Program-made: the position numbers and the translations under genes
Shown here: one piece after another, positions 3,460 to 10,630 of the stretch
How the letters are laid out: every line of letters begins with the position of its first letter
Numbering within the stretch: position 1 is the stretch's first letter
Source of the DNA: Loktanella sp.
GTDB lineage: Bacteria; Pseudomonadota; Alphaproteobacteria; Rhodobacterales; Rhodobacteraceae
Assembly (NCBI GenBank): GCA_024686085.1
Contig: JAIBDT010000007.1
Span: 1-64,000 of the forward strand
Direction of reading: 5' to 3'
DNA: 64,000 nt
Notes under the pieces: model-generated
The model's database searches: none
The model's input: the letters and a program-made list of their open reading frames with translations, nothing else
Told to the model about the DNA's origin: nothing

Positions 3460-4281
3460 GTGGCTGACCTACTGACACTCGAAAATGCAACGAACCTGAT
3501 CATGCTATGCTTTTTGCAGGCTGTTCTGGGGTTCGATAACCTTCTTTACATCTCGATCGAGAGCCAACGCGCACCAGTCGCACAGCAAAAAGCTGTACGC
3601 ACTTGGGGCATTATTATCGCCGTGGCCCTGCGGGTTGTGCTGTTGTTTGTGATGATCAAATTGATCGCGGCCCTGTCCGCACCGTTCTATATCTTCGACT
3701 GGCCCGGTGTCATTGAGGGCGGTGTGAACTTTGCGACCTGTGTCTTTGTCATCGGTGGTGTGTTCATCATGTACACGGCGGTCAAAGAGATCGCGCATAT
3801 GCTGTCACTGGACGGATTGGGTCACGACGTGGATGGCAAGTCGTCAAAGTCTGCGGTGCATGTGATTGTATTGATTGTGATCATGAACCTGATCTTCTCG
3901 TTTGATTCCGTGCTGTCGGCGCTGGCGATTACGGATGTTTTCCCGATCCTTGCGACTGCGATTTTGTTGTCGGGCTTGGCGATGTTGCTACTGGCTGATG
4001 GCGTCACACGGTTTTTGGAAAAGAACCGCATGTATGAAGTGCTTGGCCTGTTCATCTTGTTGATTGTCGGCGTTGTTTTGCTGGGTGAAGCTGGCCCCGC
4101 TGCCGGTCACGCTGTGCATGACGACGCGCTGAACATCAAGGTTTTCGGCAAGGAAATCATCCCGATGTCCAAAGCGACATTCTACTTCTCTGTGATCGTG
4201 TTGTTCGCCGTCGAAATCTTGCAGTCCGGTTATAGCCGCAAGTTGAACGCGGAACGCAAGGCGTTGCAGAAGCACTCGTAA
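3460..4281 (+). CDS. TerC family integral membrane protein
   Basis: FLQAVLGFDNLLYISIES and MNLIFSFDSVLSALAIT repeats characteristic of TerC; GTG start at 3460 preferred. Confidence 0.85.
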   Translation: MADLLTLENATNLIMLCFLQAVLGFDNLLYISIESQRAPVAQQKAVRTWGIIIAVALRVVLLFVMIKLIAALSAPFYIFDWPGVIEGGVNFATCVFVIGGVFIMYTAVKEIAHMLSLDGLGHDVDGKSSKSAVHVIVLIVIMNLIFSFDSVLSALAITDVFPILATAILLSGLAMLLLADGVTRFLEKNRMYEVLGLFILLIVGVVLLGEAGPAAGHAVHDDALNIKVFGKEIIPMSKATFYFSVIVLFAVEILQSGYSRKLNAERKALQKHS

Positions 4282-4288
4282 ATCACGT

Positions 4289-4316
4289 GCATCGTCCCTA
4301 TAATAAGGGTCGATGC
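4289..4316 (+). terminator. Hairpin between terC and the xpaC/telA cluster
   Basis: GCATCG-T-CCCT ... AGGG-T-CGATGC followed by GTTTTC. Confidence 0.5.
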
Positions 4317-4341
4317 GTTTTCGCTAATCCGAGGGGATCAC

Positions 4342-4428
4342 ATGCCTAAGTCATTTCAACGCGGCGCCTATGTCGTTCTGATCGTGCTACTGTTTGGCGT
4401 CACCTCTGGTTGGCTAGGAGCAGTCTGA
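4342..4428 (+). CDS. Putative 28-aa single-TM micro-ORF overlapping the next CDS (ATGA)
   Basis: AGGGGATCAC ATG; MPKSFQRGAYVVLIVLLFGVTSGWLGAV*; TGA overlaps the ATG of the next gene at 4428. Confidence 0.5.
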   Translation: MPKSFQRGAYVVLIVLLFGVTSGWLGAV

Positions 4429-5306
4429 TGGCCAAGCAATATGGCGGTAAATACAGCCCCAACGGCACGCCAGCGACAGGTCCGCGCGAGGTTATCGACG
4501 ACCGTCAGGTGGATGCTGCGGGTGCCAGATCAAACGTATTATTTGTCCCTGCCATTGTGTTGGTGGCGACCACGTTTTCTGATGGTCCTGTGCAGTTGAT
4601 TACCGGTCTTGTGGGGGCTGCTGCTTTGACGATTGCCGCGATGCTGTTGCGCGAGGGTCTGCGTGCCGAGGCCGCATATGATCTGCGCAAAGTCGCCCGC
4701 CGCCCTGCGTTTCCGCGCAAGATGATGGCCTCTGCCTTGACTGGTGTTGGTGTCGCGCTTGCCTCTTTTGCCCATGATGCCAGTGTCTTATCGGCCATTC
4801 TTTACGGTTTTGCGGGTCTGGCTGTGCATGTTGCCGCCTTTGGTATCGACCCGCTACGCGACAAGCGGATGGAGGGCATTGATACCTTCCAACAAGACAG
4901 AGTCGCCCGCGTTGTTGATGAGGCCGAGGCGCATTTGTCGGTGATGGCAGGTCAGATCGAAGGTCTTGGCGATCGCGCCCTTTTGGTTCGCGTAACGGCG
5001 TTTCAGGCTGCTGCCCGCAAGATGATCCGCACGGTCGAAGAAGACCCGCGTGACCTGACGGGCGCGCGCAAGTTTCTGGGCGTGTATTTGATGGGTGCCA
5101 AGGATGCCACGATCAAGTTTGTTGACCTGTACCGTCGGTCTAAGGACGCGGATGCGCGTGCGAATTATGAACAATTACTGGGCGATCTTGAGCAAAACTT
5201 TGCTGCCCGCACGCAAAAGATGTTGCTCGATGACCGCAGCGACATGGATATTGAAATCAAAGTGCTGCGCGACCGTTTGCAGCGCGAAGGCGTAGGCCTG
5301 AAATAA
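4428..5306 (+). CDS. XpaC-like (5-bromo-4-chloroindolyl phosphate hydrolysis family) protein
   Basis: MAKQYGGKYSPNG..., two TM segments plus a helical XpaC-like C-terminus; immediately upstream of telA. Confidence 0.75.
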   Translation: MAKQYGGKYSPNGTPATGPREVIDDRQVDAAGARSNVLFVPAIVLVATTFSDGPVQLITGLVGAAALTIAAMLLREGLRAEAAYDLRKVARRPAFPRKMMASALTGVGVALASFAHDASVLSAILYGFAGLAVHVAAFGIDPLRDKRMEGIDTFQQDRVARVVDEAEAHLSVMAGQIEGLGDRALLVRVTAFQAAARKMIRTVEEDPRDLTGARKFLGVYLMGAKDATIKFVDLYRRSKDADARANYEQLLGDLEQNFAARTQKMLLDDRSDMDIEIKVLRDRLQREGVGLK

Positions 5307-5321
5307 CAAGGGGGACATCTT

Positions 5322-6512
5322 ATGTCTGATACAATCCGCAAAAAAGCCGAGGCCGCGTTGGCTGAAGTTGAAAAAGTTACAGCCGTGGTTCTGGCAGAGC
5401 CAAAGGGCGAGCTGGTGACAATGGCCGAGGCTGACAAGCCGACCACGACCGAGATCAAGCGCCGTATGGACGAGATCGACATGACCGACACACAGTCGAT
5501 TGTGTCTTTTGGATCGGGCGCACAGGCTGAATTGCAAGTGATCAGCCAGTCGATGCTGGCTGGCGTGCGCAACAAGGATGTTGGCCCAGCGGGTGACAGT
5601 CTGCGTAATATCGTCAGCACAATCCGTGGTTTCTCGGTGTCCGAATTGGACGTGCGTCGCAAGCGGTCATGGTGGGAAAAGCTGCTAGGTCGTGCCGCCC
5701 CTATGGCGAAATTTGTCGCGCGATTTGAGGATGTTCAGGGCCAGATTGACATGATTACCGATGATCTGTTGCGCCACGAGCATGTGCTGCTGAAAGACAT
5801 CGAAAGCCTTGATGTTTTGTATGAGAAGACATTGCAGTTCTATGACGAGCTGGCGCTTTATATTGCCGCTGGTGAGGAAAAGATCGCTGAATTGGACAGT
5901 AAGGTCATTCCAAAGAAAGAACTGCAGGTGTCCAAGGCCCCTGAAGGCAAAGCCGTGATGATGGCGCAGGAATTGCGCGATATCCGCTCTGCCCGTGATG
6001 ATCTGGAACGCCGTGTGCATGACCTTAAATTGACCCGTCAGGTCACAATGCAGTCTTTGCCGTCAATCCGTCTTGTGCAGGAAAATGACAAGTCGCTTGT
6101 GACCAAGATCAACTCGACGCTGGTTAACACTGTGCCGCTTTGGGAAACCCAATTGGCCCAAGCCGTGACGATCCAGCGCTCTGCCGAGGCTGCTGAGGCC
6201 GTCCGCGATGCGAATGATCTGACCAACGAGTTGCTGACAGCCAACGCCAAGAACCTGCGCGATGCCAACAAGGTCATTCGCACAGAAATGGAACGCGGTG
6301 TGTTTGATATCAACGCCGTGAAGGAAGCCAACGCCAACTTGATCGCCACGATCAACGAAAGCCTTGAGATTGCTGACGAAGGCAAGCGCAAGCGTGCGGA
6401 AGCAGAGGAAGAGCTGAAGCGTATGGAAGCAGAGTTGAAGGATACTTTGGCCTCTGCCAAGGCCCGCAAGACTGGGGCTGGCGATAACGTCGGCACCGCA
6501 ACAGGCAACTAG
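5322..6512 (+). CDS. telA: Toxic anion resistance protein, TelA/KlaA family
   Basis: MSDTIRKKAEAALAEVEKVTAVVLAEPK..., SLPSIRLVQENDKSLVTKINSTLVNTVPLWETQLAQAV is TelA-typical. Confidence 0.9.
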   Translation: MSDTIRKKAEAALAEVEKVTAVVLAEPKGELVTMAEADKPTTTEIKRRMDEIDMTDTQSIVSFGSGAQAELQVISQSMLAGVRNKDVGPAGDSLRNIVSTIRGFSVSELDVRRKRSWWEKLLGRAAPMAKFVARFEDVQGQIDMITDDLLRHEHVLLKDIESLDVLYEKTLQFYDELALYIAAGEEKIAELDSKVIPKKELQVSKAPEGKAVMMAQELRDIRSARDDLERRVHDLKLTRQVTMQSLPSIRLVQENDKSLVTKINSTLVNTVPLWETQLAQAVTIQRSAEAAEAVRDANDLTNELLTANAKNLRDANKVIRTEMERGVFDINAVKEANANLIATINESLEIADEGKRKRAEAEEELKRMEAELKDTLASAKARKTGAGDNVGTATGN

Positions 6513-6513
6513 A

Positions 6514-7482
6514 ATGCTGGGCTGGGGTCTGAAAGCGACGTCTATCTTGGGCCTTGTGGCGTTGGCCGGTTGCGCCACTGCACCCGCACCCCAGCCCGCA
6601 GTCACACCAACGGTGCGACCACAAGAACGCGTGGTGCCTGTCATCCCGCCTGTGGTCTCGCCGCCTGTGTCGGATGAAAGGTCTGCGGAACTTGCCGCGT
6701 ATTACGCCCGTGTCGAAAACAGCCTGACAGTGCGCGGCCTGCTGCGCACGGACGGCGGCGGTCCTGATACGCCATTCACCGATACTCAGCTTGCCCGCAA
6801 TTTTGTGCGCATTGCCCTGTTTGACGAATATGTCGCCGACGGGGACCGCCTCCGCGCCCGCACGACCGCGTCGAAACTGCGCCGTTGGGAACAGCCCGTG
6901 CGTATGTCAGTCGCGTTTGGCGACAGTGTCCCCGTTGATCAACGCGCCCGAGACGAAGCATCGGTTCGCAAATATGCCAGCCGTTTATCACGGCTCACGG
7001 GCTTGCCGATCACGGTGACAAATGACAACGCCAATTATCATGTACTGTTCTTGGACGAGAACGACAGACGCGGGGCGGAAAGCCGTTTGCGCGCTTTGGT
7101 CCCTGGTATTTCGCCTAGCTCTATGCGTGCGATCCTGACTTTGCCGCGCAACCAGTTGTGCATTGTCGTTGCTTTTTCAGAGCCCGGACAGTCCGAGTAT
7201 ATCAAGGCGATCTCTGTCATACGCGCCGAGCATCCCCCACTATTGCGTCAATCGTGCATACATGAAGAATTGGCCCAAGGGCTAGGGTTGGCCAATGACA
7301 GCAATGCCGCCCGTCCGTCGATTTTTAATGATGACGAGGAATTCGGCTATTTGACCAACCATGACGAACTGTTGTTGAAGATGCTTTATGACCGCAGATT
7401 CACCTCTGGCATGACCCCTGAACAAGCCGCCCCTATCGCCAAAATCATCGCAACTGAACTGACCACCGCTGGCGCAAGCTAG
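6514..7482 (+). CDS. DUF2927-type lipoprotein
   Basis: Lipobox LVALAGC, FTDTQLARNFVRIALFDEY..., RQSCIHEELAQGLGLANDSN...SIFNDDEEFGYLTNHDELLLKMLYD. Confidence 0.8.
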   Translation: MLGWGLKATSILGLVALAGCATAPAPQPAVTPTVRPQERVVPVIPPVVSPPVSDERSAELAAYYARVENSLTVRGLLRTDGGGPDTPFTDTQLARNFVRIALFDEYVADGDRLRARTTASKLRRWEQPVRMSVAFGDSVPVDQRARDEASVRKYASRLSRLTGLPITVTNDNANYHVLFLDENDRRGAESRLRALVPGISPSSMRAILTLPRNQLCIVVAFSEPGQSEYIKAISVIRAEHPPLLRQSCIHEELAQGLGLANDSNAARPSIFNDDEEFGYLTNHDELLLKMLYDRRFTSGMTPEQAAPIAKIIATELTTAGAS

Positions 7483-7514
7483 TAGATGTGACCCAATCCA
7501 AAGGAGCCTGACCA

Positions 7515-8612
7515 ATGGGCATTTTCGATTTTCTAAGCGGCGAATTTATCGACGTTATCCACTGGACTGACGACACCCGTGACACGATGGTGTGGCGCTT
7601 TGAGCGCGAAGCCCATGAGATCAAATATGGCGCCAAGCTGACGGTCCGCGAGGGCCAAGCGGCTGTTTTCGTGCATGAGGGACAGTTGGCGGATGTCTTC
7701 ACGCCAGGTCTGTACATGTTAGAAACGAACAACATGCCGATCCTGACGACGCTGAACCATTGGGATCATGGCTTTAAGAGCCCGTTCAAGTCCGAGATTT
7801 ACTACGTCAACACGACCCGTTTTTCCGACCTGAAATGGGGCACGAAGAACCCGATCATGTTGCGCGACCCTGAATTTGGCCCGACCCGTATTCGGGCTTA
7901 TGGCACCTATACTGTCAAAGTGTCCGATCCCGCGGTGTTCCTGCGCGAGATCGTGGGCACGGATGGCGAATTTACGATGGACGAGATCAGCTATCAGATC
8001 CGCAACATCATTGTGCAGGAATTCAGCCGCGTGATTTCCTCGTCCGGTATTCCTGTGTTGGATATGGCAGCGAATACTGCGGATCTGGGCAAGTTGGTTG
8101 CCACTGCGATTTCCGCCACGATGACCCAATACGGCTTGACGATCCCCGAGCTATATATCGAAAACATCAGCCTGCCGCCTGCGGTCGAGGCCGCCTTGGA
8201 CAAGCGCACATCGATGGGCATCGCAGGTGATTTGGGCAACTTTATGCAATATTCCACAGCCGAAGCGATGACCGCTGCGGCCGCTAACCCAAATGGTGGC
8301 GGCGGCATGGGTGCCGGTCTTGGCATGGGGATGGGCATGGCGATGGCGGGCCAGATGCAATCGGGTCCTTGGGGCGCAGTTCCGTCTGCGCCGCCGCCGC
8401 CCCCTGTTGAGCACGTCTGGCATATTGCCGTTGATGGTGCGGTCACGGGGCCGTTTTCCAAGGCGTCTATGGGTCGCAAGGTCACTGACGGCACTTTGTC
8501 GCGTGACAGCAAGGTCTGGACCCAAGGTCAGGACGGCTGGAAGTCTGCTGATGAGGTTCAAGAGCTTGCGCAATTGTTCACTGTGATGCCCCCACCGCCG
8601 CCAAGCGCCTAA
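7515..8612 (+). CDS. SPFH-domain (virion core/YdjI-like) protein with C-terminal GYF_2-like domain
   Basis: MGIFDFLSGEFIDVIHWTDDTRDTMVWRFER...; G/M-rich linker; C-terminal HVWHIAVDGAVTGPFSKASMGRKVTDGTLSRDSKVWTQGQDGWKSA. Confidence 0.85.
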   Translation: MGIFDFLSGEFIDVIHWTDDTRDTMVWRFEREAHEIKYGAKLTVREGQAAVFVHEGQLADVFTPGLYMLETNNMPILTTLNHWDHGFKSPFKSEIYYVNTTRFSDLKWGTKNPIMLRDPEFGPTRIRAYGTYTVKVSDPAVFLREIVGTDGEFTMDEISYQIRNIIVQEFSRVISSSGIPVLDMAANTADLGKLVATAISATMTQYGLTIPELYIENISLPPAVEAALDKRTSMGIAGDLGNFMQYSTAEAMTAAAANPNGGGGMGAGLGMGMGMAMAGQMQSGPWGAVPSAPPPPPVEHVWHIAVDGAVTGPFSKASMGRKVTDGTLSRDSKVWTQGQDGWKSADEVQELAQLFTVMPPPPPSA

Positions 8613-8615
8613 CCC

Positions 8616-9710
8616 ATGTCGCAGACGCCAATCGAGCATCGCTTTCCGTGTGATACTTGCGGATCAGATCTAAGGTTTGATCCGCGCACGCATCAATTGA
8701 CCTGCGATCATTGTGGGAATGTGCAGCCGATTGGCGGCACGCAGGCGATGTCTGGTGGCATCAAGGAGCTGAATTTCCGCGCCGCGGTTGCCAATCAGCT
8801 ATCGGATGAGGAAATCGAGGAAACCCGCGTGGTGACCTGCCCCAATTGCGGGGCGAGCACTGAATTTGACAGTGACGTGCATGCTGCTGAGTGTCCGTTT
8901 TGCGCGACCCCTGTGGTCACGGATACAGGCGTGCACCGTCATATCAAACCGCGTGGATTGTTGCCCTTTGCCTTGGATGAGGGCGCGTCCCGTGTTGCCT
9001 TAACCAAATGGTTGGGCAGCCTGTGGTTCGCCCCTAATGGTCTGATGGAATACGCCCGCAAGGGTCGCCAGATGAACGGGATTTATGTCCCCTATTGGAC
9101 CTTTGATGCCGATACCAAAAGCCAATACCACGGCCAGCGCGGCACCCATTATTACGAGACCAAGACCGTTGTCCGCGATGGCAAACGTCAGCAAGTTCAA
9201 GTTCGCAAAACCCGCTGGCGCAGGGTCTCGGGCCGCGTTGCCCGCTTTTTCGACGATGTGCTGGTGCTCGCGTCTAAAAGCCTGCCCAAGAAATATACCG
9301 ACGGGTTAGAGCCGTGGGACTTGTCCGCGCTGGAGCCCTACAAGCCCGAATATCTGGCAGGCTTTCGCGCCGAGGGCTATCAGGTTGAGCTGGCAGATGG
9401 CTTCACCGAGGCCCGCGCCTATATGGACCGTATGATTTTGCGTGATGCCAAATATGATATCGGCGGCGACGAGCAGCGCGTCAGTGACGTGCAAACCCAG
9501 ATCAGCGATGTCACGTTCAAGCATATTTTGCTGCCCGTCTGGCTGGCCGCTTATAAATACCGCGGCCGCACGTTTCGGTTTGTCGTGAACGGGCGCACGG
9601 GCCGTGTGCAAGGCGAGCGTCCGTATTCGGCGTGGAAGATTACATTTGCCGTTATAATCGGACTGATAGTTGCACTGATCGCAGGATATGTTATCGCTAA
9701 CAGCCAGTAG
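8616..9710 (+). CDS. Multi-zinc-ribbon protein with C-terminal TM segment
   Basis: CDTCGSDLRFDPRTHQLTCDHCG and CPNCGASTEFDSDVHAAECPFC; C-terminal ITFAVIIGLIVALIAGYVIA. Confidence 0.8.
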   Translation: MSQTPIEHRFPCDTCGSDLRFDPRTHQLTCDHCGNVQPIGGTQAMSGGIKELNFRAAVANQLSDEEIEETRVVTCPNCGASTEFDSDVHAAECPFCATPVVTDTGVHRHIKPRGLLPFALDEGASRVALTKWLGSLWFAPNGLMEYARKGRQMNGIYVPYWTFDADTKSQYHGQRGTHYYETKTVVRDGKRQQVQVRKTRWRRVSGRVARFFDDVLVLASKSLPKKYTDGLEPWDLSALEPYKPEYLAGFRAEGYQVELADGFTEARAYMDRMILRDAKYDIGGDEQRVSDVQTQISDVTFKHILLPVWLAAYKYRGRTFRFVVNGRTGRVQGERPYSAWKITFAVIIGLIVALIAGYVIANSQ

Positions 9711-9724
9711 ATATGGAGAGACAG

Positions 9725-10630
9725 ATGATCCTTTGTGCCGGTGAAGCCCTGATTGATATGATTCCGCGTCAAACGACCGAAGGCGGCACGGCCTTTGCCC
9801 CGCTGGCGGGTGGCTCTGTTTTCAATACCGCCATTGCCTTGGGTCGTCTTGGCACCCCTGTGCAATTCTTTTCGGGTCTGTCGTCGGACCTGTTTGGCGA
9901 TGTGCTGCGCAGTGAATTGACCGCGTCCAAGGTTGATAGCGCCCCTGCCAATGTGTCGGACCGCCCGACGACGCTGGCTTTTGTGACGCTGACCAATGGG
10001 CACGCCTCTTATGCGTTTTATGACGAAAACACGGCGGGCCGAATGATCACCAAAGCTGATTTGCCTGATGTGGCCGCTGACGCGATCTTTTTTGGCGGGA
10101 TTAGCTTGGTGGTCGAGCCTTGCGCCGATGCCTATCAGGCGTTGATGCTGCGCGAGGCCACGTCTTGTGTAACGATGATTGATCCCAACATTCGCCCCGG
10201 TTTCATCAAGGACGAGGCCGCCTATCGCGCCCGTTTGACGTCGATGTTTGCGGTGGCCGATATTATCAAAACCTCTGACGAGGATCTGGAATGGATCACA
10301 GGTGGCACGGATGCTGCGGCGTTGTTTGAGGGCACCAATGTGCAGGTCATTTTGCTGACACGCGGCGCCGATGGTGTGACGGTTCTGACCCGTGATGCCT
10401 CTGTCGATGTTCCTGCTCAGAAGGCCACGGTGGTCGATACTGTCGGTGCTGGCGATACGTTTAGCGCTGGTTTCTTGTCGAGCTTGCATGGTGCGGGATT
10501 GCTGACGAAAGCGACGTTGGCCGATGCCCGCCTTGATGATCTTGCGGCGGCGGCTGGCTTTGGTGCCCGTGTTGCGGCGATCACTGTGTCGCGTGCGGGT
10601 GCGAACCCGCCTTGGGCGTCCGAGCTATGA
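9725..10630 (+). CDS. PfkB-family carbohydrate kinase (fructokinase-like)
   Basis: [43 protein letters not shown]. Confidence 0.88.

Follow-up and report, generated by a model that had tools for sequence, protein, structure and literature searches.

XpaC, TelA, an SPFH protein and a double zinc-ribbon protein (ZnR) are encoded by the conserved core of a gene cluster in Loktanella sp., and this cluster is a real operon-like unit that occurs in nearly every relative sampled from the same family. By analogy with the PspA system of Bacillus subtilis, we consider it about an even chance (probability roughly 0.5) that the unit specifies an inner-membrane protection complex, in which TelA and XpaC would take the place that PspA holds in Bacillus. 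The window referred to below is the whole stretch of DNA that was analyzed, 64,000 nucleotides in length.

Organization of the gene cluster

The original prediction described six co-directional genes and a micro-ORF, with short gaps from position 4342 onward; all of these lie on the plus strand at positions 3460 to 9710, and each gap from 4342 is 32 nt or less. A TerC-family membrane protein (3460..4281; Pfam TerC, 126 bits), with a GTG start at either 3460 or 3424, is followed after 60 nt by an ORF for a predicted 28-aa microprotein with a single transmembrane (TM) segment (MPKSFQRGAYVVLIVLLFGVTSGWLGAV, 4342..4428), the stop codon of which overlaps the start of XpaC in the sequence TGATG at 4426-4430. 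XpaC (PF10112; 4428..5306; 91 bits) is separated by 15 nt from TelA (PF05816; 5322..6512; 354 bits), and TelA by 1 nt from a DUF2927 lipoprotein (6514..7482; 208 bits). The next gene, 32 nt downstream, encodes a YdjI-type SPFH protein (PF13421; 7515..8612; 334 bits) with a C-terminal GYF_2 domain (66 bits), and ZnR, a tail-anchored protein with two CxxC zinc ribbons, 8 Cys and a C-terminal TM segment (8616..9710), begins 3 nt after it. The gene run extends past 9710, since a PfkB-family sugar kinase (9713..10630, plus strand), a neighbor outside the core, starts 2 nt beyond ZnR and is itself followed by dtd.

In the window, the 60-nt gap between TerC and the micro-ORF has a folding energy of -21 kcal/mol and includes a hairpin accompanied by a short T run; no promoter or terminator structure shared by the relatives was evident in this gap. 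A stretch common to four relatives (AATCTTCCCCCTAG; L053, L056, L071 and L093) lies in their TerC-XpaC gap, upstream of the micro-ORF, and is a possible regulatory site.

Conservation of the core and its flanks

The distribution of the cluster was assessed in two samples. For the close sample, 80 family loci were fetched with the TelA of the window, and genes were counted with profiles built on these loci: TelA and DUF2927 are present in all 80, XpaC in 79, SPFH in 75 and ZnR in 71, while the flanking genes rluB, dtd, PfkB and TerC are present in 76, 64, 44 and 32, respectively. As these loci had been picked by similarity, a second, random sample was drawn by searching separately for XpaC in 299 genomes of the phylum, where 21 of the 22 listed family members carry XpaC (the window's own genome counted); 21 family loci were then inspected. 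XpaC, TelA and SPFH occur together in 19 of these 21 XpaC-positive loci, DUF2927 is present in 17 and ZnR is adjacent in 15; the flanks are variable (rluB 12, dtd 12, PfkB 8, TerC 5). Counting against a complex are four of the 19 XpaC-TelA-SPFH loci, in which ZnR was not detected alongside, and two of the 21 loci, in which XpaC has neither TelA nor SPFH nearby. XpaC-like genes with no TelA or SPFH nearby were seen at two loci from a single genus (L127 and L128, in G291 and G413).

Matches of more than 200 bits to the window-type SPFH protein were found in 8 of 145 genomes of the class, and XpaC, TelA and SPFH are neighbors in six of these eight, so the grouping is not due to chance. The same 145 genomes include three, from three other alphaproteobacterial families (G113, G046 and G101), that carry the bare XpaC-TelA-SPFH-ZnR cassette between unrelated flanks. 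The core is thus present both in random family loci and in three outgroup families; the neighborhood check proposed with the original prediction bears it out, and the cluster is not one conserved only in close relatives. In the TelA tree, cassette TelAs form one well-supported clade apart from TelAs in other contexts, with one long-branch exception; the SPFH and ZnR trees speak neither for nor against a common origin of the cassettes.

Each half of the core is also found without the other. The SPFH-ZnR pair occurs by itself on plasmids of Vibrio, Comamonas and Tsukamurella and at one further locus (L088), two Bacillota plasmid records hold SPFH genes without TelA, and several alphaproteobacteria have TelA with XpaC and no SPFH-ZnR, often with one gene in between. 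The unit can therefore be described as two dyads that have been joined, each of them linked in other bacteria to membrane protection, together with family-level additions. At L085, L087, L089 and L102-L105 the gene between TelA and XpaC is one of ~520-560 aa, and the one copy checked, that of L087, encodes a VWA domain.

Rearrangements and insertions leave the core recognizable. At L066 it is intact in a rearranged context, with PfkB and dtd inverted upstream. A cytochrome b561-like gene is inserted in 34 of the 80 close loci and a nitroreductase gene in 20, both of which are absent from the window cluster. One such cytochrome b561-like gene (L094:8897-9499; PF01292, 37 bits) lies between SPFH and ZnR, as in those 34 loci; the other inserts within the cluster are mutually unrelated and include DUF6338 and DUF4241 (Pfam), the rest having no named match. 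A 1.46-Mb plasmid of Paracoccus ferrooxidans (L097) has the order TelA-DUF2927-SPFH-ZnR-PfkB, with XpaC not detected.

TerC fares differently. It had been proposed as a member of a Ter-type system, and this part of the original prediction fails: TerC is poorly conserved, being found in only 5 of the 21 random loci, 32 of the 80 close loci and none of the three outgroup cassettes, and we judge that it adjoins the core unit without belonging to it. The TerD family (PF02342) has no match in the window's genome, which is 91% complete. With TerC not a member and TerD absent from the genome, a Ter-type stress system was ruled out.

A conserved predicted microprotein upstream of XpaC

The micro-ORF has a ribosome-binding-like site (AGGGG) a few nucleotides upstream, and hydropathy analysis predicts one TM segment in its product. 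An ORF was scored in relatives when it had at least 22 codons, a hydrophobic end and a stop within a few nucleotides of the XpaC start. Of the 79 close loci, 77 have such an ORF, as do 18 of the 19 random family loci; the latter rate is slightly favored because several in-frame XpaC starts were tried there; shuffled upstream sequences yielded one in 4.5% of cases. Silent changes exceed replacements in several close pairs, with pS of 0.24-0.31 against pN of 0-0.11 (e.g. 0.28/0.00 and 0.24/0.02), while pN/pS over all pairs is uninformative owing to the ungapped comparison and the many distant sequences. In some relatives the frame extends to ~66 aa and includes a second hydrophobic stretch. The three outgroup cassettes yielded no micro-ORF. 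On these sequence grounds, the micro-ORF is predicted to encode a conserved and overlooked single-TM membrane microprotein, easily missed because of its length of 28 aa.

Predicted properties of the core proteins

Hydropathy analysis places four hydrophobic or TM segments near the N terminus of XpaC, followed by a predicted cytosolic domain. TelA has no TM segment and is soluble by the same analysis. The two genes form a PF10112-PF05816 pair, 15 nt apart in the window, whose order is kept in 19 of the 21 random loci and in the three outgroups. The AF2 model of TelA is all-helical (mean pLDDT 73), with two helices of ~79 and ~116 residues. An ESCRT-III/PspA or BAR fold was considered for TelA and is left open: long helices are predicted, yet no match in the fold search reached significance (best E 5e-3, low TM), and a profile search against solved structures found no homologue by sequence.

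The SPFH protein likewise has no TM segment by hydropathy. Its GYF domain is bracketed by a poly-Pro linker in 87 of 100 SPFH proteins and a poly-Pro tail in 88 of 100. GYF domains bind proline-rich peptides, so self-association of the SPFH protein through GYF-polyproline contacts is a reasonable guess. ZnR has 8 conserved Cys arranged as two CxxC ribbons and one C-terminal TM segment, and general Pfam models match it weakly. The expectation that TelA/XpaC would adjoin a YdjI-like SPFH and zinc-ribbon pair is thus upheld, both by the 334-bit PF13421 match and by the 8-Cys double ribbon.

DUF2927 has a metzincin-like predicted fold with an altered zinc site

The DUF2927 lipoprotein, whose lipobox Cys20 is invariant, had been proposed as part of the module. 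This holds within the family, where it is present in 80 of 80 close and 17 of 21 random loci, and not beyond it: it is missing from all three outgroup cassettes, and two family members (L112 and L121) have XpaC-TelA-SPFH-ZnR without it. DUF2927 is a family-level addition to the core.

The AF2 model of this protein has a mean pLDDT of 86, and its top 50 fold matches in the PDB are all matrix metalloproteinases or the MMP-like karilysin. These matches are moderate (probabilities 0.66-1.00, target TM ≤0.63, best E 1.2e-3) and point to a metzincin catalytic-domain fold. In place of the HExxHxxGxxH zinc motif, 36 of 36 aligned members have EExxQxxGxxND (E251, E252, Q255, G258, N261 and D262 in the window protein), within a longer segment, CxHEExxQxxGxxND, that is kept in all 36; most other DUF2927 proteins inspected have [HVIL]EExxQxxGxxND. 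The register of the motif is fixed by a distant member (L142, G078:C1:117257-117769), which keeps an intact-looking HExxH at the equivalent position (HELMHALGFPGH). In this register, Glu stands in the place of zinc ligand 1, Gln in that of ligand 2 and Asn/Asp in that of ligand 3; the catalytic Glu has been retained. A Pfam scan of DUF2927 members matched no peptidase family, a DUF2927 profile found no meaningful sequence relative among solved structures, and a literature search on DUF2927 found no paper.

The parsimonious reading of the model and the motif is that DUF2927 has a matrixin/metzincin-like fold that has probably lost its normal zinc site, which makes a predicted role in binding or sensing more likely than proteolysis; it may act with some other metal. 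L142 itself could represent an active branch of the DUF2927 family. The window's genome also encodes a second DUF2927 protein outside the cluster (L130, G000:C13:77518-78120), with HEELAQALGPLND at the motif.

Comparison with known systems

In B. subtilis, YdjI (SPFH) recruits PspA to the membrane together with YdjG/H (PMC8581546). The window cluster shares with pspA-ydjGHI a YdjI-type SPFH gene adjoining one for a zinc-ribbon membrane protein, the Bacillus SPFH protein being an effector recruiter (PMC8581546, PMC11237479). It differs in having neither pspA nor a YdjH-like gene, in the presence of TelA-XpaC at the effector position, in the GYF domain and poly-Pro segments of its SPFH protein, and in the additional DUF2927 and microprotein genes. 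Band-7 and zinc-ribbon partners have likewise been proposed to build membrane complexes in PSP variants, according to a survey (PMC11237479), the main text of which names neither TelA nor XpaC.

The XpaC-TelA (YaaN) pair of Listeria and Bacillus has the same arrangement, an xpaC-like gene followed directly by a telA-like one (lmo1966-lmo1967; PMC12791056). In Listeria these constitute a putative two-gene operon, whereas the window pair is linked to SPFH-ZnR and has a coupled predicted microprotein in front of it. A Listeria TelA relative is reported to contribute to nisin and tellurite tolerance (cited in PMC12791056). The telA gene of R. sphaeroides, a relative within the same order, belongs to the TelA family and may be an ortholog of the window gene; kilAtelAB of plasmid RK2 belongs to it likewise. 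Literature searches for TelA with XpaC and SPFH, and for toxic anion resistance with SPFH, returned no paper, though older Ter comparative-genomics papers may list the combination. A role in anti-phage defense was rejected, as none of the six proteins had a PADLOC match.

Discussion

The core is difficult to explain as ordinary conservation of gene order among relatives, with no functional link between the genes. Flanking genes are often kept in the family as well, as noted for rluB and dtd in the close loci, and yet the core outlasts the flanks in the random sample, recurs in three families among unrelated flanks and survives the rearrangement at L066, making this explanation highly improbable. 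Co-regulation of two independent dyads, with XpaC-TelA and SPFH-ZnR sharing one operon as general stress genes and no common complex, is rather doubtful: XpaC-TelA does occur in other contexts, and three other genera as well as L088 have SPFH-ZnR by itself, but in four families the two dyads stay joined in the same order despite flank changes and insertions.

The cluster could instead be mainly a tolerance locus for tellurite or other toxic oxyanions, with TelA and XpaC reducing the harm done by oxyanions and the remaining proteins aiding redox or membrane repair. One paper (PMC6955997) lists telA of R. sphaeroides as a chromosomal determinant for tellurite, an L. cremoris operon including telA is tied to tellurite sensitivity (PMC13109727), and relatives insert the cytochrome b561-like and nitroreductase genes described above. 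These inserts are optional, however, and missing here; SPFH-ZnR pairs exist without TelA; the Listeria TelA is reported for nisin too, which is no oxyanion; and near-universality in the family does not suggest defense against a rare toxin. We regard this explanation as unlikely.

From the gene content, conservation, hydropathy-based topology and predicted folds we infer, for the inner-membrane protection complex, a physical assembly with an order of recruitment, a trigger and a function. XpaC and its coupled microprotein would serve as membrane anchor or sensor, and TelA as a cytosolic helical effector recruited by XpaC. The SPFH protein would form a scaffold on the membrane, possibly with cross-links between its GYF domains and poly-Pro segments; the tail-anchored ZnR would keep it there, in the way that YdjI of Bacillus relies on YdjG/H. 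In the family only, the DUF2927 lipoprotein may provide a ligand-binding element on the outer side of the membrane. Envelope damage would lead to scaffold assembly, and the membrane would be stabilized with TelA-XpaC instead of PspA. The more elaborate proposition, of an undescribed alphaproteobacterial membrane-protection machine in which TelA-XpaC, and not PspA, is the effector and a YdjI-like SPFH/ZnR scaffold drives it, assisted by a single-TM microprotein and a zinc-less periplasmic sensor of metzincin fold, is possible and put forward tentatively.

The envelope-stress module of the original prediction therefore survives as a conserved unit, stripped of TerC and the Ter framing, with a stress function that is suggested by its protein families. 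Its suggestion that TelA/XpaC and not PspA partner the SPFH pair agrees with the lack of pspA in the cluster and is qualified by a PspA encoded on another contig (C2) of the window's genome, which counts against the complex as proposed; this PspA may take part too, in trans.

To our knowledge, TelA and XpaC are widespread and tied to tellurite or antimicrobial tolerance, with no known mechanism. The analysis exposes a conserved predicted microprotein and places DUF2927 in a predicted metzincin-like fold. A nearly family-universal operon that couples TelA-XpaC to an SPFH scaffold leads to a testable hypothesis, namely that TelA acts at the membrane in the fashion of PspA.
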